This document shows, one piece after another, positions 46,150-56,331 of a stretch of DNA of 64,000 nucleotides. Position 1 is the stretch's first letter. Every line of letters starts with the position of its first letter. The DNA is taken from contig CANLLZ010000002.1 of assembly GCA_947492235.1 (NCBI GenBank), positions 310,001 to 374,000 on the forward strand, in the 5' to 3' direction. This stretch comes from an uncultured Altererythrobacter sp. (GTDB taxonomy: Bacteria; Pseudomonadota; Alphaproteobacteria; Sphingomonadales; Sphingomonadaceae). The notes beneath the pieces were generated by a model. The model ran no database searches and was not told where the DNA came from. It worked only from the letters and a program-made list of their open reading frames with translations. Made by a program: the position numbers and the translations under genes.

Positions 46150-48687
46150 TTAGAACTTCGCGCCGATCTCCACGCCAATCAGACGGCGTGCCCCGGGGGA
46201 TATGAACGATCCGCCGAACTCGATGGCCGGAATGGCTTCGTTGATATATTTCTCGTTGAAGAGGTTCTCGGCGAAGACGGTCACGCTGAACTGGCCGGTG
46301 TCGATCCCGGCGCGCAGATTGAACACACCGAAAGCATCGCGCTGGGCGACATCATAACGCGCATCGCCGACGAAGCCGGGCAAGGCCAAGGCCGAGATCG
46401 GCAGGAGACCGGAGAACAGCGTGGGCCGCGTCTGATCCTGCACCGTGTGGAACCATGTCGGGCCGGTCACGCGGTAATCGGCCCGCACCAGCAGATCGAT
46501 GGAATTGCTCAGCGGCACGTCCATCTCGCTGCCGAAATTGATCGTGTAATCGGCGGTGTAGGGCGATTTGTTGCCGACCGTATAGGTCCGTGAACTGTTG
46601 GCCTTGATCTCGCTCTCGGTCACATTGAACGCGCCGAACAGACGCCAGCCATCGACGATTTCCGCCGTCATATTCAGCTCTGCGCCGTAGACCTCGACCT
46701 CGTCGATATTGGACACCACGCGCAGCAGGCCAAAGCTGCCGACGAAGAATTCGAAGAACTGCATGTCGTCGATTTCGGTGTAATATCCAGCCAGATCGAA
46801 CGTCAGACGCCCGTCCCACACATTGCCCTTCACACCCACCTCGAACGCGCTCGACACTTCCTTGTCGTAATCGTCGCGGATGGTGACGTTTGCGCCGATG
46901 AACTGGTTGAAATTGGCATCGACAAGCGCCGCAGAACCCTGATTGTTAAAGCCGCCCGATTTGAAGCCGATGCCCCAGTTGGCATAGATGTTCACATCGG
47001 GTGTGGGGCGGTAGCTGAGCGTCACCTTGGGCTGCAGCTGCTTGTAGGTCGCGTCCTTGTCGGTCAGCGGGCCGAAGGCTTGCCCCGGATTGATCGGGCC
47101 GCCGGTGAAGGGATCGATCGCGCCGGTCGGGACCAGCGAGGATGTGGTCCGGTCTTCGATATCGTAGCGGAGCGCCAGTCCGGCCGAGAACTTCTCGCTC
47201 GGCTGATATTCCAGCGAAGCAAACGCGGCGTAGACATTGGTATCGAATCCGTCGGCCAGCAGGAGCGATGTGGGGTTGGAACTGCCCGGCGCGTTGAACA
47301 GCTCGCGGCTCACGCCTGCACCGGTATCCGCGCCCAGGCTCACGCCCACTTCGCGGTCGATATTGAGATAATACGCGCCGACCTGCCAGCTGAGAGGGCC
47401 GCCCGTATCCGACGCCAGCCGGATTTCCGCGCTGATGTCTTTCTGGTCGCGCGTTTGCAGCTGGGTCCCGTCGCAGGTCGTCGGGCTGTACGCGCCGAAG
47501 GTCGAGCCATTGGCCGGCGCGAAGATAAACGGCACCGGGATCTGTCCGATAAAGCCGGGCTGGTTGATCGGGAAACCGGTAAGGTTCGCGGTCGAGGCGA
47601 AACAGGAATTGACCGCCGCTGCGCCTGCCGGATCGACGGCGCTGATATAGCGCGCGAAATCAGCCGAGGTGCCGTCTGCCGTCAGCTCCTGCGAAATGTC
47701 GGAATAGAGCGCCCATGCGGTGAGGATGGCCGAATCGAATTGATGCTCGATCTTGGCCGAGACATCGAAGCTGTCCTGGCTGTTGGTCGGGCGAATATTG
47801 CCCTGATAGCCGAACTCGCGGGTGTTGATGTCCTCGTAAAAGGCCGGGTTCACGCCTGCGAAATTGGGCAGATGGAACGAGGCGTTGAAGTTGATCGACG
47901 CGCCGCGCAGCTGCGAATAGCGGGCCTTCACGTCCAGCTCGGTAGCGGGCGAGAGGTCCGCCACCACCCGGCCATCGACAGTCCACACTTCCTGATCGTC
48001 CACCACCTTGTCGTTCAGGAAGGTGTTGGTGAAGAAACCGTCCGTCGTGCGGTAATAACCGGACAGGACGAAACCCAGATTCTCGGCAATCGGCCCGGCA
48101 ATATGCGCGGTGCCTTCGATGGTCTTCTCATTGGCGTAAGAGAGGTTGGCCGCGCCCTCGAAGAAGCTGCCGGGCTTGAGCGTTTGCAGCACGACAGCCC
48201 CCGCCGCGGCGTTGCGGCCATACAGCGCGCCTTGCGGGCCTTTCAGGATTTCCGCCTGCCGCAGCGTGCCCTGCACCTGATTGAGCTGCGCGGTGTTGGT
48301 TTTCAGAATGCCGTCGACCACCAGAGCGATGGAGCTTTCCGCGTCGCGCGCACCGTTGATGCCGCGAATATTGACCTGCGTGTCGCCAGCCTCTGCTGTC
48401 CCGGTGACAATGGTCACGCCGGGGGTGAGCTGGGCAAAGTCAGACGCATTGTCCGCGCCCGTCTTCTCCAGCGCATCCGCTGTCAGCACGGTAACCGAGG
48501 CGGGCGTATCCTGCAGCGTTTCCGACTGGCGGCGGGCGGTAACGATAATGACGCCATCATCGGCCCCGGCATCGGCCCCGGCATCCGCTTGCGCACCGGC
48601 ACCGGTGGCTTCCTGCGCGGCGGCGGGGGCGGAGACGAGCGCTCCAACTGCGATTGAGGCGAGAAGGAAAGGCTTCGAAATCCGCAT
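46150..48687 (-). CDS. TonB-dependent outer-membrane receptor
   Basis: An 845-residue receptor. Signal peptide MRISKPFLLASIAVGALVSA..., then a short Ala/Gly/Asp repeat, the TonB-box-like region VIIVTARRQ, a plug domain (about residues 50-160, with QVNIRGING and LKGPQGALYGRNAAAGAV) and a 22-strand barrel ending in the typical aromatic-poor EIGAKF. ATG at 48687 chosen from the signal peptide. It is divergent from the GntR regulator and shares its operator region, so it probably imports the substrate handled by the neighbouring operon rather than iron, though a siderophore role is not excluded. Confidence 0.9.
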   Translation of the reverse strand: MRISKPFLLASIAVGALVSAPAAAQEATGAGAQADAGADAGADDGVIIVTARRQSETLQDTPASVTVLTADALEKTGADNASDFAQLTPGVTIVTGTAEAGDTQVNIRGINGARDAESSIALVVDGILKTNTAQLNQVQGTLRQAEILKGPQGALYGRNAAAGAVVLQTLKPGSFFEGAANLSYANEKTIEGTAHIAGPIAENLGFVLSGYYRTTDGFFTNTFLNDKVVDDQEVWTVDGRVVADLSPATELDVKARYSQLRGASINFNASFHLPNFAGVNPAFYEDINTREFGYQGNIRPTNSQDSFDVSAKIEHQFDSAILTAWALYSDISQELTADGTSADFARYISAVDPAGAAAVNSCFASTANLTGFPINQPGFIGQIPVPFIFAPANGSTFGAYSPTTCDGTQLQTRDQKDISAEIRLASDTGGPLSWQVGAYYLNIDREVGVSLGADTGAGVSRELFNAPGSSNPTSLLLADGFDTNVYAAFASLEYQPSEKFSAGLALRYDIEDRTTSSLVPTGAIDPFTGGPINPGQAFGPLTDKDATYKQLQPKVTLSYRPTPDVNIYANWGIGFKSGGFNNQGSAALVDANFNQFIGANVTIRDDYDKEVSSAFEVGVKGNVWDGRLTFDLAGYYTEIDDMQFFEFFVGSFGLLRVVSNIDEVEVYGAELNMTAEIVDGWRLFGAFNVTESEIKANSSRTYTVGNKSPYTADYTINFGSEMDVPLSNSIDLLVRADYRVTGPTWFHTVQDQTRPTLFSGLLPISALALPGFVGDARYDVAQRDAFGVFNLRAGIDTGQFSVTVFAENLFNEKYINEAIPAIEFGGSFISPGARRLIGVEIGAKF

Positions 48688-48792
48688 TGACTGCTCCCGT
48701 TGCTGTCCGGCCCTCGGTCCGGGCCACCCGCTGCGATAAATTCCTGCGGCGATGCGCCGCTCGCAAACCGGGCTTGATGAATGCGGCATGTA

Positions 48793-48802
48793 TTGTATAC
48801 AA
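48793..48802. promoter_or_regulatory. Palindromic GntR-type operator, site 1
   Basis: TTGTATACAA, a perfect 10-base palindrome in the 197-base space between the TonB receptor and the GntR gene. The core TGTATACA recurs at 49575-49582. GntR/FCD regulators bind short GT-N-AC palindromes of this kind, so autoregulation and control of the receptor are likely. Confidence 0.65.
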
Positions 48803-48884
48803 AATGCACAGGTCAAGTTTTTTAGGGCCTGCGCCCATTCGGGCCAGAGAAAGCCGTCATCAGGGGGCCTTAGGGAGAGCAGCC

Positions 48885-49565
48885 GTGTCGAAAGCATCGG
48901 ACAGAGCCTATTCGGTCATCAGAGACCTGATTCTCTCCGGCGAGCTGGCGGCGGGCGCTCCCCTGCGCGAGGAAGCGCTGGCAGAGAAATGCGGCGTATC
49001 CCGCACACCGATCCGCGAGGCCCTGAACCGTCTCGAAGCGGAATTGCTGATCCAGCGGACCGAATCGCAGCGCAGCTTCGTAGCCGAATGGTCGCTCGAT
49101 GAAGTGGCCGACGCTTTCGAACTGCGTGCGGTCATCGAAGGCATTGCAGCGCGCCGGGCGGCAGAGCGGATGACGCCCGAAATCCTGCAGAAAATGCGCC
49201 GCTGCGACACAGCGATCAGCGAGGCTGTGGCCCGCGACACAGCCGATGTAGACGCCTATCTCGATGCCAATCGCGAGTTTCACGCGCTGATTGTCGAGGC
49301 CGCCGCGTCCCCCCGTCTGGCTGGCATTCTGGCAACTCTGGTCGAGCAGCCGATCGTCTGGCGTACCGCGCATCATTATGGGGCCGAGGAATTGCGCCGG
49401 TCCCACCGCGAGCACGGCGAATTGCTCGCGGCCTTTGCCCGGCGGGACGGATTGTGGGCGCAGGATATCATGGGCGCGCATATTCGCCGCGCGTTCCACG
49501 CCTATGCCGATGCGCATGGCGGCCTTTCCGCGATCGATACCGCTCCGGCCCGGAGAAGCTCGTAA
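48885..49565 (+). CDS. GntR family regulator, FCD-type
   Basis: A 226-residue regulator: winged helix-turn-helix in residues 1-70 (REEALAEKCGVSRTPIREAL) and an all-helical FCD ligand domain (about 80-215) with metal-type histidines (NREFHALIVE, SHREHGELL). GTG start at 48885 with AGGGAGA six bases upstream. Its stop overlaps the next gene (TAATG). FCD regulators respond to small carboxylic acids, consistent with an adjacent catabolic operon. Confidence 0.9.
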   Translation: MSKASDRAYSVIRDLILSGELAAGAPLREEALAEKCGVSRTPIREALNRLEAELLIQRTESQRSFVAEWSLDEVADAFELRAVIEGIAARRAAERMTPEILQKMRRCDTAISEAVARDTADVDAYLDANREFHALIVEAAASPRLAGILATLVEQPIVWRTAHHYGAEELRRSHREHGELLAAFARRDGLWAQDIMGAHIRRAFHAYADAHGGLSAIDTAPARRSS

Positions 49566-50539
49566 TGTCTGGAATGTATACAGTTGATGGTGTCAACTCC
49601 GTGAGCATAGGCGCCGTCGAGATGCTGGAAGTCAGCCCGCGCGACGGGTTGCAGAACGAGAAGCAGGCCATTTCTACCGCCGACAAGCTGGCTCTGATCG
49701 GCCACGCCATCGCCGCCGGATCGCGGCGGATCGAGGTGACCAGCTTCGTCAATCCGCGCGCCGTGCCGCAAATGGCCGATGCCGAGGATGTGTGCGCGGG
49801 GCTGCCGGACCGGAAAGATGTGACCTTTATCGGCCTCGTCATGAACCAGCGCGGAGCAGAGCGCGCGCTGGCCACCGGGCGGATCGACCAGTTGGGCGCA
49901 GTGTCCGTTGCGACCGATACCTTTGCAATGCGCAATCAGGGCCAGACCAGCGACGGGTCGGTCGAGGCTGCGAAGGAGATCATTGCCCTCGCCCGCCAGT
50001 CGGGCAAAACCGCGCAAGCCACCATCGCCGCCAGTTTCGGTTGCCCATTCGAGGGCGAAGTGGCCGGCGACCGCGTGATCGCCATGGCCACCGCCATCGC
50101 CGAAGCCGGGCCTGTCGAGATCGCGCTGGCCGACACGATCGGCGTGGGCAATCCCGCCCATGTCGCGCGCTTGGTCGAGCGGTTGCGCACAGAATTGCCG
50201 AACCTGCCGGTGCGGGTCCACTTCCACAACACGCGCGGCACCGGCCTCGCCAATGTCTGGGCGGCGGTGCAGGCAGGCGCGCGCACGGTCGATGCTTCAT
50301 TGGGCGGCTTGGGCGGTTGCCCCTTTGCGCCGGGCGCAGCGGGCAATGTGGCGACCGAAGATGTGGCTTACATGCTGGAGCGGGCCGGAATTGCCACCGG
50401 GCTCGATCAGCCGAAACTTCACGCGGCCAATCGCTGGCTGGGGGAAATCATGGACAGACCGCTGTCCGCCATGGCGGCGAAGGCTGGCCCCTTCCCCGCT
50501 CAACAATCCGAACAAACACACGAAAAGGAAGCTGTTTGA
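49565..50539 (+). CDS. HMG-CoA lyase family protein
   Basis: About 324 residues, a DRE-TIM metallolyase of the hydroxymethylglutaryl-CoA lyase type. Metal/substrate motif SPRDGLQNE near the N-terminus, HFHNTRG metal histidines, and the catalytic-cysteine loop GGLGGCPFAPGAAGN near the C-terminus. It would cleave a 3-hydroxyacyl-CoA to acetyl-CoA or pyruvate plus a ketone/acid. ATG at 49565 overlaps the regulator stop; GTG at 49601 is an alternative that would leave the TGTATACA palindrome upstream of the coding region. The stop overlaps hyuA (TGATG). Confidence 0.88.
   Translation: MSGMYTVDGVNSVSIGAVEMLEVSPRDGLQNEKQAISTADKLALIGHAIAAGSRRIEVTSFVNPRAVPQMADAEDVCAGLPDRKDVTFIGLVMNQRGAERALATGRIDQLGAVSVATDTFAMRNQGQTSDGSVEAAKEIIALARQSGKTAQATIAASFGCPFEGEVAGDRVIAMATAIAEAGPVEIALADTIGVGNPAHVARLVERLRTELPNLPVRVHFHNTRGTGLANVWAAVQAGARTVDASLGGLGGCPFAPGAAGNVATEDVAYMLERAGIATGLDQPKLHAANRWLGEIMDRPLSAMAAKAGPFPAQQSEQTHEKEAV
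49575..49582. promoter_or_regulatory. Palindromic GntR-type operator, site 2
   Basis: TGTATACA, the same core as site 1, at the start of the catabolic operon just after the regulator gene. If the lyase starts at 49601 rather than 49565 it is a conventional operator. Confidence 0.5.
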
Positions 50540-52593
50540 TGCGTTATCGCTTGGGCGTCGATGTTGGCGGGACTTTCACCGACCTGCTGCTGTTCGACAA
50601 TGAAACCGGCGGGTTCTGGCGGCACAAAACCCCCAGCACCCCGCATGACAGCTCCGAAGGTATCCTGACCGGCGTGGCTGAGATCACTGGCACCGCCGGG
50701 ATCGACGCGAGCGAGATCGGGTACTTTCTTCACGGCACGACCGTGGCGACCAATGCCGTGCTGGAAGGCAAGGGCGCGCGCGTGGGGCTGATCACGACCG
50801 AAGGCTATCGCCACATCCTGCAGATCGCGCGCAGTTTCGTGCCCGGCGGCCTTGCCGCTTGGATCATCTGGCCCAAGCCGCAGCCGCTTGCCGCGCTGGA
50901 AGATACGCTCGAAGTTGGCGGCCGCATGGACGCCGATGGCAAGGAAGTACGTGCCCTAGACGAAGACGGCGTGCGTGCAGCAATCGCTGCGCTGAAGGTC
51001 AAAGGCGTCGAGGCGCTGACCGTCAGCCTGATGAACGCCTATGTGAATGGTGAACACGAGAAGCGCATCGGCGCAATCGCCGAGGAACTGATGCCCGACA
51101 TCCCCGTCTCGCTCAGCCATGAAGTGCTGCCCGAGATGCAGGAATACGAGCGCACGCTTTCCACCGTGGCCAACGCCGCGGTGCGCCCCGTTGTAGGCAA
51201 ATATGTTTCGAAACTACGCACCGGCCTCGCCGATGCGGGGATGCAGGGCAATCTGTCGCTGCTGCGTTCCGATGGCGGACTGATGAGCGCGGAGAAGGCC
51301 GAAGAGCATCCCGTGAACATCCTCATGTCCGGCCCCGCCGGCGGCGTTACTGGTGCCCTTTGGGTCGCAAAGAATGCCGGTTTCGACAACATCCTGACAC
51401 TGGACGTCGGCGGCACCTCTACAGACGTGGCTCTGATCGAAAATCTGGAGCCGCGCCGCGAACGCACGACCGAAGTCGGGCATCTGTCTGTTCGCGCCTC
51501 GGCGCTTGATGTGAAGACCGTAGGCGCAGGCGGCGGCTCGATCGCTTACGTCCCCGAACTCACCGGCGCGCTGCGGGTCGGCCCACAATCGGCGGGCGCG
51601 GTCCCCGGCCCTGTCGCCTATGGCAAGGGCGGCGAGGAACCGACCGTGACCGACGCCAATGTCGTGCTGGGCTATCTACCCGAAGACCTGCTGGGCGGAT
51701 CGTTTAAGCTGGACCGGGCGGGCGCAGAGAAATCCGTCCAGAAAATCGCCGACGCGCTGGGCATTGGCCTGATGGAGGCCGCGCGCGGGATCATCGACAT
51801 CGTCAACGAGAACATGTTTGGCGCACTGCGGATGATCTCGGTTCAGCAGGGCTACGACCCGCGCCATTTCGCGCTGATGGGCTTTGGCGGGGCAGGTCCG
51901 CTGCATGTCAATGCGGTCGCCCGTCTGATGGACAGCTGGCCGGCGATCTCGCCCGTATCCCCCGGCGTGCTGTGCGCTCTGGGCGATGCGACCACCCGCA
52001 TGCGGACCGAAACCGCGCGCAGTTTCAGCCGCCTCGCCAGCGATACCAAGGTCGAGGAGCTGATCGCGGTGCTCGACGAAATGTCGGCCCAAACCCGCTC
52101 CGAATTGCTCGGCGACGGCGTGCCCGAAGGCGAGATCACCAGCCAATTCGAAGTCGATATCCGCTATGCCGGGCAAGCTTTCGAAGTGCCGCTGACGATC
52201 GACCCAGAGACGCTGCGGTCAGGCGGCATCGAGGCGATCCTCCAGCGCTTCGACGAGGAGCACAACCGCCTCTTCACGTTCAACATGGATACTCCGCACG
52301 AAATCGTGAATCTGCGCGCGGTGGCGCTGGGCGAGGCCCCGCAATTGCCTGCCGCCGAGCTGGAGAAAGGCGACGGCAATCCCGCCCACGCCAAGATCCG
52401 CGACCACACGCTGTGGATGGACGGCAAGGAACAGCAGGGCGCAATCTATGACCGCGCCAAGCTAAAACAGGGCGACACCATCCCCGGCCCCGCCATCATC
52501 ACCGAAATGGATTCCACCACACTCGTTGAAACCGGATGCGTCGCCACCATCGATGCGGTCGGCAACATCCTCATCAATCCGGAGAGCAAATAA
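50539..52593 (+). CDS. hyuA: Hydantoinase/oxoprolinase family protein, subunit A
   Basis: A 684-residue ATP-dependent amidohydrolase subunit. N-terminal actin-like ATPase motif RLGVDVGGTFTDLLLFD and FLHGTTVATNAVLE; central hydantoinase A domain with ILTLDVGGTSTDVALIE and MGFGGAGPLHVNAVA. With HyuB it opens five-membered lactams, hydantoins or imides at the cost of ATP, or carboxylates ketones in related enzymes. Start and stop overlap its neighbours (TGATG, TAATG). Confidence 0.9.
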   Translation: MRYRLGVDVGGTFTDLLLFDNETGGFWRHKTPSTPHDSSEGILTGVAEITGTAGIDASEIGYFLHGTTVATNAVLEGKGARVGLITTEGYRHILQIARSFVPGGLAAWIIWPKPQPLAALEDTLEVGGRMDADGKEVRALDEDGVRAAIAALKVKGVEALTVSLMNAYVNGEHEKRIGAIAEELMPDIPVSLSHEVLPEMQEYERTLSTVANAAVRPVVGKYVSKLRTGLADAGMQGNLSLLRSDGGLMSAEKAEEHPVNILMSGPAGGVTGALWVAKNAGFDNILTLDVGGTSTDVALIENLEPRRERTTEVGHLSVRASALDVKTVGAGGGSIAYVPELTGALRVGPQSAGAVPGPVAYGKGGEEPTVTDANVVLGYLPEDLLGGSFKLDRAGAEKSVQKIADALGIGLMEAARGIIDIVNENMFGALRMISVQQGYDPRHFALMGFGGAGPLHVNAVARLMDSWPAISPVSPGVLCALGDATTRMRTETARSFSRLASDTKVEELIAVLDEMSAQTRSELLGDGVPEGEITSQFEVDIRYAGQAFEVPLTIDPETLRSGGIEAILQRFDEEHNRLFTFNMDTPHEIVNLRAVALGEAPQLPAAELEKGDGNPAHAKIRDHTLWMDGKEQQGAIYDRAKLKQGDTIPGPAIITEMDSTTLVETGCVATIDAVGNILINPESK

Positions 52594-54488
52594 TGCCTGC
52601 GCAGCTCATTCAGGAAAACACCACGCCGTTCGATACGGTAGAGATCGATCCGGTCACGCTGGACATCATCGAGAACGCCCTGCGCAATGCACGCATCGAG
52701 ATGGACGCGACGCTGGTGCGCACCGCGATGTCGCCCGGCATTCGCGAGCAGGGTGATGCCTTCCCGCTGATTGCCGATCCTGCGGGTAAGATGATTGTCG
52801 GCCAGTTCGGCAGCTTTATCGACGGGTTCCTGCAAACCTTTGACGGCACGATCGAGGACGGGGACATGATCTTCCTGTCCGATCCGTATAGCTGCGGCGG
52901 AGCAATCAGCCACTCGAATGACTGGCTGGTGATGCTGCCCGTGTTCCACGAAGGCCGCCTGATCGCATACACCGCGATGTTCGGCCATATGAGCGACATT
53001 GGCGGGAAAGTCGTCGGCTCCATGCCGATCAAAGCGCATTCGATCTTCGAAGAAGGCGTGCGCATCCCTCCGGTGAAAATCTGGAAGAAGGGCGAATATA
53101 ATGAAGACCTGATGAAACTGGTGATGCACCAGACGCGGAAAGCCGACTGGTGCCAGGCCGATCTCAACGCGCTGATCGCATCGTGCCGGGTTGCCTCCAA
53201 ACGCATCGTGGAAATGGCCGACCGGTTCGGGCCGGATGTCTATTACTCGGCGACGCAAGCCCTGCTTGATCGCAATTACCGCGCGATGAAATCATTGCTC
53301 GCCATGGCCATTGCCGAGGAGCCGGTGAGCTTCGAGGATTACATCTGCGATGACGGAATGGGCTACGGCCCTTACAAGATCAAATGCACCATGTGGCGCG
53401 AAGGCGACCGGGTCATTCTGGACTTCGCCGGGACCGATCCGCAATCCGCCGCCTCGATCAATTTCTTCCTCAACGAGAACATGTTCAAGATGTTCTTCGG
53501 CATCTACATGATCATGGTGTTCGACCCGCAGATCCTGTTCAATGACGGGTTCTACGATCTGATCGATGTACGCATTCCGTCGGGCTCGCTGCTCAAGCCG
53601 GAATTTCCCGCCGCCCTGTCGGGCCGCACCCACGCGCTGGGCCGTATTTTCGATATTCTCGGCGGTCTGCTGGGCCAGAAAACGCCGGAGTTCCTCAATG
53701 CTGCAGGCTTCAGTTCCTCCCCCCATCTGTTCTATTCGGGCAATGACAATCGGGAAGGCAAATCGGGCGAGTGGTTCCAGCTGTTCCAGATCGGCTTTGG
53801 CGGGATACCCGGCCGCCCGCTGGGCGACGGGCCGGACGGGCACTCGCTGTGGCCCGGCTTCACCAATGTGCCCAACGAGTTTCTGGAGCGCTATTTCCCA
53901 ATGCGGATCGAGCGTTACGAGACCGAGCCCGACAGCGGCGGCGCTGGTCTGCACCGCGGGGGCAACGGTATCCGCATGACCTATCGCTTCCTGGCGGATG
54001 GCCGCATTGCCATTCACGATGACCGCTGGTTCGTGCCGCCATGGGGCGTCAATGGCGGCCTGCCGGGCAAGCGCGCGAAAAAGATACTGGAGCGCGCCGA
54101 CGGCACCACCGAAATTGTCGGCAACAAGGTGGAGGATGTGGAGGTCCGCGATGGCGACCAGCTGCACTTCATCACCTGGGGCGGCGGCGGATGGGGGGAC
54201 CCGTTCGAGCGTGACCCGGCGCTGGTCGCGCTGGAAATCGAGCAAGGCCTGCTGACCGCCGAGGGCGCGCGCGAATATGGCGTGGTGATGCTGGACAATG
54301 GCACTGTGGACGAGGCAGCCACCACCGCCTTGCGCAGCGACATGAAAGCCCAGCGCGGCGAGCCCAAGCTGTTCGATTACGGCCCCGGCATCGAAGCCTT
54401 GCGCGAAGCTTGCGAGGAAGAGACCGGCCTGCCCGCGCCGATCCAGCCCGAATGGCACAGCGAGCCAATCGCGGAGGCCGCAGAATGA
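52593..54488 (+). CDS. hyuB: Hydantoinase B/oxoprolinase family protein
   Basis: A 631-residue partner of HyuA. Family opening VDPVTLDIIENALRNARIEM-like segment, GD-rich SDPYSCGGAISHSNDW, and the C-terminal GGGGWGDPFERDP signature. The same genes encode N-methylhydantoinase, 5-oxoprolinase, caprolactamase and acetone/acetophenone carboxylase subunits, so the substrate cannot be read from sequence. GGAGAG precedes the ATG; the stop overlaps the CoA-transferase gene (ATGA). Confidence 0.9.
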   Translation: MPAQLIQENTTPFDTVEIDPVTLDIIENALRNARIEMDATLVRTAMSPGIREQGDAFPLIADPAGKMIVGQFGSFIDGFLQTFDGTIEDGDMIFLSDPYSCGGAISHSNDWLVMLPVFHEGRLIAYTAMFGHMSDIGGKVVGSMPIKAHSIFEEGVRIPPVKIWKKGEYNEDLMKLVMHQTRKADWCQADLNALIASCRVASKRIVEMADRFGPDVYYSATQALLDRNYRAMKSLLAMAIAEEPVSFEDYICDDGMGYGPYKIKCTMWREGDRVILDFAGTDPQSAASINFFLNENMFKMFFGIYMIMVFDPQILFNDGFYDLIDVRIPSGSLLKPEFPAALSGRTHALGRIFDILGGLLGQKTPEFLNAAGFSSSPHLFYSGNDNREGKSGEWFQLFQIGFGGIPGRPLGDGPDGHSLWPGFTNVPNEFLERYFPMRIERYETEPDSGGAGLHRGGNGIRMTYRFLADGRIAIHDDRWFVPPWGVNGGLPGKRAKKILERADGTTEIVGNKVEDVEVRDGDQLHFITWGGGGWGDPFERDPALVALEIEQGLLTAEGAREYGVVMLDNGTVDEAATTALRSDMKAQRGEPKLFDYGPGIEALREACEEETGLPAPIQPEWHSEPIAEAAE

Positions 54489-55693
54489 GCCAGACGAAAG
54501 AGGGCGCCAATACAGGCGCGCTGGCTGGCTTGCGGGTGGTGGAGCTCGGCCAGCTTCTCGCTGGCCCGTTCTGCGGGCAGCTGCTGGGCGATATGGGCGC
54601 GGAGATCATTAAGGTGGAGCCTCCCGGCAAGGGCGATCCTATGCGCGATTGGGGCCAGGGCGAGGAAAAGGTCCAGTGGGAAGTCATCGCCCGCAACAAG
54701 AAATCCGTCACCGCCAATCTGCGCGTGGCGGAGGGGCAGGAACTTGTCCGCAAACTGATCGGCACGGCGGATATTCTGATCGAGAATTTCAAGCCCGGCA
54801 CGCTGGAGCGCTGGGGTCTTGGCCCCGATGTTCTGCTGGAGCAATATCCGCGTCTGATCATCGCCCGCATGTCCGGCTATGGGCAGGACGGACCCTATTC
54901 GGGCCGTGCGGGCTTTGGCGGAATTGGGGAGGCCATGGGCGGCTGGCGCTATGTCGTCGGAGATCCGGACCGCCCACCTGCCCGCATGGGTGTCTCCATC
55001 GGCGATACGCTGTGCGCCACCTATGGCTGCATGGGCGTGCTGGCCGCGCTGCATTCCCGCGAGAAGACGGGCAAGGGTCAGGTGGTCGATACCGCGCTGT
55101 ACGAGGCTGTGTTGCAGGTCATGGAGGGGCTGGTCCCCGAATATGATCACAACGGCTTTATCCGCGAACGCTCCGGTTCCATCCTGCCCGGCATCGCGCC
55201 GTCGAATGTCTATTCGTGCAAGGACGGCCCGTTCATGATCGGGGCCAACAACGATGCAATCTTTGCGCGGCTCGCGGTCGCCATGGGGCAGCCGGAATTG
55301 GCCGAAAGCCCGAAATACGCCACCCATCTGGCGCGCGGCGAAAACCAGACCGAGCTCGACAATCTGGTCAATGCATGGACCGCGACCAAGACCGTGGACG
55401 AAGTCGATGCCCTGATGATCGAGCACTCGATCCCCGCAGGCCGGGTCTACCGCGCGCCCGACATGCTGGAGGACCCACATTTCAAGGCGCGCGAGGCGAT
55501 CATCGAAGTCGAGACCGAGACGCGCGGGCCACTGAAAATGCAGAACGCCTTCCCCAAATTCAGCCGCACGCCCTCCTCTGTCCGCCGCCCCGCTCCAGCG
55601 ACGCCTGGGCAGGACAATGCCGAAATCTATGGCGCGCTGAATGGCTGGGAAGAGAGCGATTTCCTACGGATGGCAGCGGCAGGCGTACTCTGA
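54485..55693 (+). CDS. CaiB/BaiF family CoA-transferase (class III)
   Basis: A 402-residue family III CoA-transferase. N-terminal RVVELGQLLAGPFCGQLLGDMGAEIIKVEPP is the family hallmark, and the catalytic aspartate is probably in SIGDTLCATYG. It would activate the organic acid produced by the hydrolases to its CoA ester for the lyase. Overlaps both neighbours (ATGA, TGATG). Confidence 0.9.
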   Translation: MSQTKEGANTGALAGLRVVELGQLLAGPFCGQLLGDMGAEIIKVEPPGKGDPMRDWGQGEEKVQWEVIARNKKSVTANLRVAEGQELVRKLIGTADILIENFKPGTLERWGLGPDVLLEQYPRLIIARMSGYGQDGPYSGRAGFGGIGEAMGGWRYVVGDPDRPPARMGVSIGDTLCATYGCMGVLAALHSREKTGKGQVVDTALYEAVLQVMEGLVPEYDHNGFIRERSGSILPGIAPSNVYSCKDGPFMIGANNDAIFARLAVAMGQPELAESPKYATHLARGENQTELDNLVNAWTATKTVDEVDALMIEHSIPAGRVYRAPDMLEDPHFKAREAIIEVETETRGPLKMQNAFPKFSRTPSSVRRPAPATPGQDNAEIYGALNGWEESDFLRMAAAGVL

Positions 55694-56331
55694 TGACGGC
55701 GGACCCTGCCGAGCCAGTCGCGCATGCTGACGCCTTCGCCGGGCATTTGCAGCCGGGCGAGCGGCCCGCATTGCTGCTGGTCGATATGGTGGAGGCCTAT
55801 CTGCAGGAGACTTCGCCGCTTTATCTGGAAACCGCGCAAGCGGCGCTGGATCAGGCGGCCCGATTGCTTGCGCGCGCGCGGCAGAATTGCACACCCGTTG
55901 TGTTCACCAATGTCGCATACAAGGCGGACGGTTCGGATGGCGGGCATTTCTTCCGCAAAGTGCCCGCACTCTCGGCCTTTGTCGAAGGCTCCCCGCTGGG
56001 CGCATTCCCGCAAGCGCTCACCCCGCAAGACGGTGAGCCGGTCTTTACCAAGCAATACCCGTCCGCCTTTTTCGGCACCGCGCTGGATAGGCAATTGTAT
56101 GATCTGCGTGTCGATACGGTGATTGTGGCGGGCTATTCCACCTCGGGCTGTGTGCGGGCGAGCGCGCTCGACGCGCTGCAATACGGTTTCATCCCGATCA
56201 TTGCCGAAGACGCCTGCGCCGACCGGGACAGCGCGACGCACGATGCCAACCTGTCCGACCTCGGCAAGAAATACGCCGAAATACAGAGCGTCGACACGAT
56301 ACTCGATTGGCTGCGCCAGCCCGGCCCCTAG
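55693..56331 (+). CDS. Isochorismatase-like cysteine hydrolase
   Basis: A 212-residue hydrolase of the isochorismatase/N-carbamoylsarcosine amidase/nicotinamidase fold. The Asp-Lys-Cys triad is visible in LLLVDMVEAY, VFTKQYPSAFF and GYSTSGCVRAS. In context an amidohydrolase acting on an N-carbamoyl or amide product of HyuAB is most plausible. Its TAG stop overlaps the stop of the convergent antiporter gene in CTAG. Confidence 0.88.
   Translation: MTADPAEPVAHADAFAGHLQPGERPALLLVDMVEAYLQETSPLYLETAQAALDQAARLLARARQNCTPVVFTNVAYKADGSDGGHFFRKVPALSAFVEGSPLGAFPQALTPQDGEPVFTKQYPSAFFGTALDRQLYDLRVDTVIVAGYSTSGCVRASALDALQYGFIPIIAEDACADRDSATHDANLSDLGKKYAEIQSVDTILDWLRQPGP

Follow-up and report, generated by a model that had tools for sequence, protein, structure and literature searches.

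A conserved sphingomonad gene set predicted to import and break down a nitrogen-ring compound

What compound would a bacterium take up and degrade with an outer-membrane receptor, a HyuAB-type ring opener, an amidohydrolase, a CoA-transferase and a C-C lyase whose genes stand together around one regulator? This question is raised by a locus in a 64-kb stretch of DNA, hereafter the window, within which all coordinates are given (Table 1). The sequence-only reading of this locus had described five enzyme genes overlapping by 1-4 bases behind a GntR/FCD regulator, with an outer-membrane receptor divergent from the latter, and had assigned families from visible motifs. We confirmed this layout, the overlaps from regulator to hydrolase being 1, 1, 1, 4 and 1 bases, and the family assignments were upheld by Pfam, in which all seven proteins exceed the curated cut-off for their own family and the regulator has both its GntR and its FCD domain. 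Subfamily calls were made by NCBIfam equivalog cut-offs; among the best 25 matches of the receptor, no NCBIfam receptor model reached its cut-off. In the span first claimed for the locus, 48687-56331, position 48687 is only the start codon of the receptor, whose gene reaches down to 46150 and so falls beyond that span.

Table 1. Features of the locus, in positions of the 64-kb window.
Feature	Position	Strand	Basis and remarks
TonB-dependent outer-membrane receptor, 845 aa	46150-48687	-	Pfam Plug + TonB_dep_Rec_b-barrel; divergent from regulator
Putative GntR operator TTGTATACAA, palindrome	48793-48802	.	Consensus; between receptor and regulator
GTCAAG on + strand, a promoter-like TTGAC box reading toward the receptor	48812-48817	-	Sequence; putative promoter role
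GntR/FCD regulator, 226 aa, GTG start	48885-49565	+	Pfam GntR + FCD
HMGL-family C-C lyase, 324 aa	49565-50539	+	Pfam HMGL-like; NCBIfam NF004283
Shorter match TGTATACA	49575-49582	.	Start of lyase gene
HyuA, ATP-binding subunit of ATP-dependent cyclic amidase	50539-52593	+	Pfam Hydantoinase_A + both end domains
HyuB, metal-binding subunit	52593-54488	+	Pfam Hydantoinase_B
Family III (CaiB/Frc-like) CoA-transferase	54485-55693	+	Pfam CoA_transf_3
Isochorismatase-fold amidohydrolase	55693-56331	+	Pfam Isochorismatase

Conserved co-occurrence across genomes had been proposed as a check on this gene set, and we assessed it in 80 named loci, 64 of which have enough flanking sequence for gene content to be assessed. 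Genes for HMGL, HyuA and CaiB stand beside HyuB in all 64; the receptor and GntR genes are each present in 63, the hydrolase gene is present in 49, and gene order and orientation are kept in 52. We also ranked the ORF clusters of 77 loci by how widespread they are: of the top 70, apart from the set itself and a racemase block described below, none occurs in more than eight loci, and linkage that holds in 64 of 64 loci for HMGL, HyuA and CaiB therefore exceeds chance. Other families of the class have the gene set too, with its genes rearranged (loci L146, L148 and L233). Together, these counts support the gene set as a co-inherited unit that many sphingomonad bacteria have retained. In 15 of the 64 assessable loci the sequence fetched showed no hydrolase gene, which may therefore not be obligatory, and some relatives have a wider set than the one first described.

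The palindrome TTGTATACAA is a new observation beyond the first reading of the locus. In all but one of 66 loci (65) it precedes GntR, and its 112 exact copies, distributed over 74 of the 80 loci, all fall between -60 and +420 bases relative to the 5' end of a sequence matching one of the set's genes, with 39 of them assigned to HMGL. Many relatives carry the full TTGTATACAA near the 5' end of the lyase gene, where the window itself has the shorter TGTATACA. GTCAA follows 15-28 bases after the start of the operator copy in 73 of the 112 cases. Within the 2.97 Mb genome from which the window comes, WTTGTATACAAW occurs at a single place, and allowing up to one mismatch the window holds one operator-like sequence against 0.14 expected; two more places in the genome have the operator-like sequence with one mismatch. 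It is plausible that GntR acts as the single regulator of the set through this conserved site.

The ring-opening step would fall to HyuAB. HyuA contains DVGGTFTD, DVGGTSTD and GAVPGP, which PMC8453981 gives as the ATP motifs of caprolactamase. In HyuB, residues D55, H107, D110 and H132 align with D41, H99, D102 and H124 of CapB, and each position of this metal tetrad is kept in 84 of 86 HyuB sequences. With Hydantoinase_A and Hydantoinase_B domains, two phosphate motifs and the metal tetrad all present, HyuAB is a predicted member of the ATP-dependent lactamase family. Neither subunit reached any NCBIfam equivalog cut-off, and caprolactamase identity was rejected, given that the two subunits score 544 (HyuA) and 216 (HyuB) bits against caprolactamase equivalogs that require 1000 and that the vicinal cysteine pair of CapB is aligned with a gap in the window protein. 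The window genome also encodes a distinct HyuAB, in fused form, next to a DUF969 gene.

The lyase had been called HMG-CoA-lyase-like, a label that is borne out by its NF004283 score (307 bits, cut-off 246), which places it within the HMG-CoA lyase family, and by its R, D, E, H, H, C and N residues, all kept in alignment with the human enzyme at positions that we take to be catalytic. Each of these residues is found in 98 or 99 of 101 operon-type lyase sequences, the rest being gaps. The label nonetheless needs care because the clade carries a loop motif of its own, NQGQT in the window lyase and NQGQ[TS] in 90 of the 101 sequences. Residues 1-17 have no counterpart in any of the four solved lyases compared, so the true start of the protein could be further in.

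The two remaining enzymes can likewise be placed by family. The CoA-transferase has an SIGD motif from residue 171, and no NCBIfam equivalog cut-off was reached by it, including those of its best matches, the succinate--glutarate (262/750 bits) and succinyl-CoA:mesaconate (235/700 bits) CoA-transferases. The hydrolase, with TSGC from residue 150, also reached no NCBIfam equivalog cut-off; its PDB matches are 26st (1.1e-39), 3ot4/3uao (5.6e-32), 4l07 (2.2e-29) and 1nba (1.5e-24), of which 3uao and 4l07 are presumably maleamate amidases.

Relatives of HyuAB are found with other neighbours, and in particular with other lyases. Loci L172, L173 and L175-L177 combine them with a CitE/RipC-like lyase, an acyl-CoA dehydrogenase, CaiB, a receptor and the hydrolase, and loci L149, L178, L187, L189 and L205 with LeuC/LeuD-like and methylisocitrate-lyase-like genes, while locus L219 has HyuAB, HMGL, CaiB and a methylisocitrate-lyase-like gene in a single run. 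These calls were profile-checked for proteins of L149, L176, L178, L188 and L189 and made by similarity to them elsewhere. In loci L243, L244, L248 and L249, CaiB and HMGL are adjacent and the sequence fetched contains no HyuAB. A racemase-like gene of the Asp/Glu/hydantoin-racemase family and two SnoaL-like genes join the set in 21 of the 64 assessable loci; this block was rejected as part of the core on that count and because a search of the window genome at 1e-40 gave no match to it.

From gene overlaps, protein families, active-site residues, conservation of the set and the operator-like site, we consider that the locus is probably an inducible catabolic regulon for import, ring opening by HyuAB, amide hydrolysis, CoA transfer and C-C cleavage, and this general chemistry, set out already in the sequence-only reading, is still the likeliest one. 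The receptor would import a nitrogen-ring compound, which HyuAB would open with ATP, perhaps using bicarbonate as in caprolactamase. The isochorismatase-fold enzyme would then take off the remaining amide or carbamoyl nitrogen to leave a dicarboxylic acid, which would receive CoA through the family III transferase, for instance from succinyl-CoA, and the HMGL-type lyase would split a 3-hydroxyacyl-CoA into acetyl-CoA (or a homologue) and a keto acid. GntR would repress in both directions through TTGTATACAA. Our favoured candidate for the ring is a cyclic imide, because ring opening followed by a second amide cleavage would give a dicarboxylate and because relatives pair similar HyuAB proteins with a hydratase of the aconitase type and a lyase of the methylisocitrate-lyase type, the kind of pair that handles alkylmaleates. 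Against this reading, the window operon contains no hydratase, so either the substrate already carries the 3-hydroxy group needed by the lyase or another source must supply it; the loci in which no hydrolase gene was found also count against it. A more specific version is quite unlikely: a TonB-fed route for alkyl-substituted cyclic imides, such as maleimides from tetrapyrrole oxidation, in which HyuAB would be an imidase and an alkylmalate would be cleaved by exchangeable lyases, HMGL or CitE-like with CoA and methylisocitrate-lyase-like without it.

Other substrates would make different use of the same enzymes. In a hydantoin or ureide pathway, HyuAB would open a hydantoin substituted at position 5 or at nitrogen, giving a carbamoyl compound, the hydrolase would be a carbamoylase, the racemase-like protein of relatives would handle stereochemistry, and CaiB and HMGL would dispose of the carbon skeleton. 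The names of the nearest solved proteins, N-methylhydantoinase for HyuB and N-carbamoylsarcosine amidohydrolase for the hydrolase, point this way, as does the linkage of the racemase-family gene. Relatives also carry proteins that suit ureides or hydantoins equally: a dihydropyrimidinase (L150, above its cut-off), a PuuE-allantoinase-like protein (below cut-off) and an FAD monooxygenase (L219, below cut-off, with 3-hydroxybenzoate 6-monooxygenase as its best match and urate hydroxylase among the weak ones). Racemization is doubtful, however, because the racemase-like protein has Thr and Ser at two positions where two hydantoin racemase crystal variants differ by Cys, positions that we take to be catalytic, and an amino acid product would have no obvious need for CoA transfer and a C-C lyase; overall we regard this pathway as rather unlikely. 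Very unlikely, in our estimate, is a lactam with an acetate arm, whereby HyuAB would open an oxindole-type lactam to an aryl-substituted hydroxysuccinate, CaiB would activate it and the lyase would free acetyl-CoA. Anaerobic indoleacetate breakdown, a pathway that has a family III CoA-transferase, offers a precedent. Its HyuAB-like enzyme, IaaCE, is described in PMC8453981 as having been proposed to open 2-oxoindoleacetate. Against the lactam reading, the window operon has no oxygenase, the hydrolase would lack a clear role, and in the aerobic auxin papers searched by term no hydantoinase, CoA transferase or lyase turned up. The auxin iad/iac pathway, considered for its supposed hydantoinase and lyase genes, was rejected as the answer on this result and kept as a low-ranking rival.

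Two further proposals concern single enzymes, and we consider both extremely unlikely. HyuAB could be a carboxylase of the acetone/acetophenone kind, which belongs to the same superfamily and whose acetophenone carboxylase subunits are among the NCBIfam matches, but with 314 (HyuA) and 126 (HyuB) of the 1500 bits required these matches fall well short of the cut-off and behind those to caprolactamase subunits, and an amidohydrolase neighbour would make little sense. Alternatively, the lyase could be the leucine-breakdown HMG-CoA lyase of this genome, with the other genes unrelated to it. It is the genome's only HMGL match at 1e-10, and carboxyltransferase, biotin-carboxylase-like and acyl-CoA dehydrogenase genes are also present there, four of which were tested and fell short of every NCBIfam equivalog cut-off; yet an operon-type HMGL (at least 52% identity) coexists with a second type (36-43%) in 12 of 99 family genomes, and the lyase gene's presence in every assessable operon locus also argues against this explanation.

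The sequence-only reading knew of no named pathway with exactly this combination, and among the matches listed from the open-licence library searched, we found neither this gene set nor a homologous operon with an assigned substrate. To our knowledge, the substrates of many hydantoinase/oxoprolinase genes have yet to be established. PMC8453981 says the same of close homologues of capAB. At the locus described here, enough is defined, from importer and regulator to operator-like site and downstream steps, to allow some direct experiments, and the switch of C-C lyase around related ring openers provides a handle on the ring-opening product.

Several known systems share parts of this layout. CapAB of Pseudomonas jessenii has in common with the window HyuAB two unfused subunits, the ATP motifs and the Asp-His-Asp-His metal tetrad, and differs from it by the CapB cysteine pair. 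By description, IaaCE is a further likeness: it is HyuAB-like, its proposed role is the opening of an N-heterocycle, and it belongs to a longer catabolic cluster. Creatinine breakdown supplies the names of the nearest solved proteins to HyuB and the hydrolase, although that route is not known to include a CoA-transferase or a C-C lyase. Among family III CoA-transferases, those for glutarate and mesaconate give the best NCBIfam matches of the window enzyme, below cut-off, and for HMG a solved succinate--hydroxymethylglutarate CoA-transferase is third and fourth among its closest PDB matches. Of the solved HMG-CoA lyases compared, 1ydo, 2ftp and 2cw6 have NINKS or NINCS where the window lyase has NQGQT; the NIN form is not universal, since a fourth, 6nds, has NMRMT, and with four lyases of less than 50% identity in the loci showing NIR or NVR it was rejected as a general mark of HMG-CoA lyases. 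In family cut-off and catalytic residues, the window lyase is like HMG-CoA lyase.

The gene set around HyuB is a real and conserved catabolic unit that is probably under regulation; it joins known enzyme families in a combination for which we found no published account in the open-licence literature searched. At 1e-100, HyuB was matched in 76 of 298 genomes of a family sample and in 34 of 385 of a class sample. Our scan of named genomes confirmed at least 583 relatives, from which the best 80 loci were taken forward. Their titles name Erythrobacter, Novosphingobium, Sphingorhabdus and similar, or for some MAGs just Sphingomonadales or Alphaproteobacteria; exclusion of 16 with short flanks left 64 assessable. 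The co-occurrence search proposed in the sequence-only reading found the genes kept together: the HMGL lyase, HyuA and the CaiB-like CoA-transferase accompany HyuB in all 64 of these loci from the best 80, the receptor and the GntR regulator in 63 each and the hydrolase in 49, the last not being found within the stretch examined around HyuB in 15. The order receptor (minus strand), GntR, HMGL, HyuA, HyuB, CaiB is found in 52 of the 64, and 40 of those 52 close on the 3' side with the hydrolase; in nine loci the hydrolase lies elsewhere or the order is altered. Of the 70 most widespread ORF clusters compared, those belonging to neither the gene set nor a racemase block each reached at most 8 of 77 loci. 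L146, L148 and L233, which represent other families within the class, hold the regulator, a receptor-like gene and all five enzyme genes in differing orders.

The five overlapping enzyme genes noted earlier behind the GntR/FCD regulator measure as described, with overlaps of 1, 1, 1, 4 and 1 bases at all junctions from regulator through hydrolase, and the families read from motifs agree with Pfam profile searches for all seven products. The operon's 3' end is at the hydrolase, whose stop is overlapped by an opposing 635-residue frame, taken for a potassium-efflux protein, that terminates at 56328. The lyase is the sole product to reach an NCBIfam cut-off (NF004283, 307 vs 246 bits); HyuA, HyuB, transferase and hydrolase fall below that of every model listed. 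A caprolactamase study (PMC8453981) names two phosphate motifs and an adenosine motif, and these are present in HyuA. The HyuB Asp-His-Asp-His set (D55, H107, D110, H132) is conserved at each position in 84 of 86 aligned sequences. The lyase retains the residues aligned with human R41, D42, E72, H233, H235, C266 and N275, and these are conserved in 98 or 99 of 101 operon-type sequences (at least 50% identity to the window lyase), the remainder being gaps. SIGD starts at transferase residue 171 and TSGC at hydrolase residue 150.

Whether the genes respond to the regulator had been left in doubt, and the answer offered here is purely computational, namely a conserved putative operator, TTGTATACAA. 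Of the 66 loci in which GntR matched on the forward strand, 65 have it within about 250 bases upstream of that gene, L078 being the single locus without it. Across 1,575,263 bases, 112 exact copies were found in 74 of 80 loci, all between 420 bases ahead of and 60 bases within the 5' end of a gene-set or racemase-like match (assigned to GntR 45, HMGL 39, racemase-like 18, receptor 10). One mismatch to the version WTTGTATACAAW adds two further places in the window genome.

Coordinates of features in the window and in loci fetched around relatives of its proteins
Feature	Location	Content
Putative operator version	48792-48803 (window)	WTTGTATACAAW, single place in window genome
Racemase block, example	L041:4426-6013	racemase-like, two SnoaL-like proteins
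Second HyuAB of window genome	L199:6516-10801	fused HyuAB, then DUF969 gene

The racemase block joins the gene set in 21 of the 64 assessable loci from the best 80. In the example, a 247-residue protein (Pfam Asp_Glu_race) neighbours two SnoaL-like proteins, 144 and 136 residues long. It carries IDT and GST, with Thr and Ser at the two positions that a Cys distinguishes between a pair of crystal variants of a single hydantoin racemase; LGSTTM recurs in 23 of 23 such racemase-like proteins and LIDTxxDxG in 22. At 1e-40 such matches occur in 34 of 298 family genomes and not in the window genome, and 26 of 27 genomes with a match of at least 69% identity also hold window-type HyuB (Fisher p 2e-16, ignoring relatedness). 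More remote relatives, at 45-51%, are found in clusters of another kind, such as L181 and L185, where Pfam finds Rieske oxygenases and a catechol dioxygenase or muconate-lactonising-type enzyme, so the racemase-like family is not specific to the HyuAB pathway. These clusters look like an aromatic pathway; by eye, L183 and L184 resemble them, the racemase-like relatives of this group being at 47-50%, and TonB receptors are also nearby.

The second HyuAB of the window genome, 1199 residues, is presumably a 5-oxoprolinase. Elsewhere, HyuAB relatives (HyuB 60-63%) adjoin a Sua5/YrdC-like protein in L141, L142, L145 (profile-checked), L157 and L158; these loci also carry MmgE/PrpD-like or methylisocitrate-lyase-like genes, plus ABC transporters in some of them. 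Two diverged HyuAB copies lie about 17-18 kb apart in L150/L151, L152/L153, L154/L155 and L156/L157, separated by an ABC transporter, an amidase and in some dihydropyrimidinase-like genes.

Near other HyuB relatives the C-C lyase varies, being CitE/RipC-like with acyl-CoA dehydrogenase, CaiB, receptor and hydrolase (L172, L173, L175, L176, L177) or methylisocitrate-lyase-like with LeuC/LeuD-like genes (L149, L178, L187, L189, L205). Proteins of L149, L176, L178 and L189 were profile-checked and the other lyase-variant loci assigned by similarity to those; the LeuC/LeuD-like proteins checked reached their model cut-offs, and the methylisocitrate-lyase-like, CitE-like and PuuE-like ones all fell under their own equivalog cut-offs. 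In L219, HyuAB, HMGL, CaiB and a methylisocitrate-lyase-like gene are co-directional and followed by a gene judged by eye to be of the IclR type, while the opposite strand holds PuuE-like and arylmalonate-decarboxylase/maleate-isomerase-family relatives. In a midpoint-rooted FastTree of 86 HyuB sequences, including 14 of the best 80 named loci, the IclR type nests within the window's wider clade, where several supports (0.24-0.52) are too low to orient the change. CaiB and HMGL are adjacent, with no HyuAB within the stretch examined, in L243, L244, L248 and L249, the last two pairs adjoining acyl-CoA-dehydrogenase-like genes. From these varying lyases and HyuAB-free pairs, we read the unit as two modules, a ring opener with an amidase and a CoA-transferase with a lyase.

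The window lyase is the only HMGL match in its genome at 1e-10. Among 99 family genomes, 12 have the operon type alongside a 36-43% HMGL type. Judged from sequence, an NQGQ[T/S] loop is a mark of the operon-type clade (NQGQT 82, NQGQS 8, together 90 of 101; nine other variants, two gaps) and may indicate a different acyl group in the substrate. Four lyases below 50% identity among the loci examined carry NIRMS, NIRMT or NVRKD. By contrast with the operon type, three of four solved lyases compared (1ydo, 2ftp and 2cw6) have NINKS or NINCS at this loop, and the fourth, 6nds, has NMRMT.
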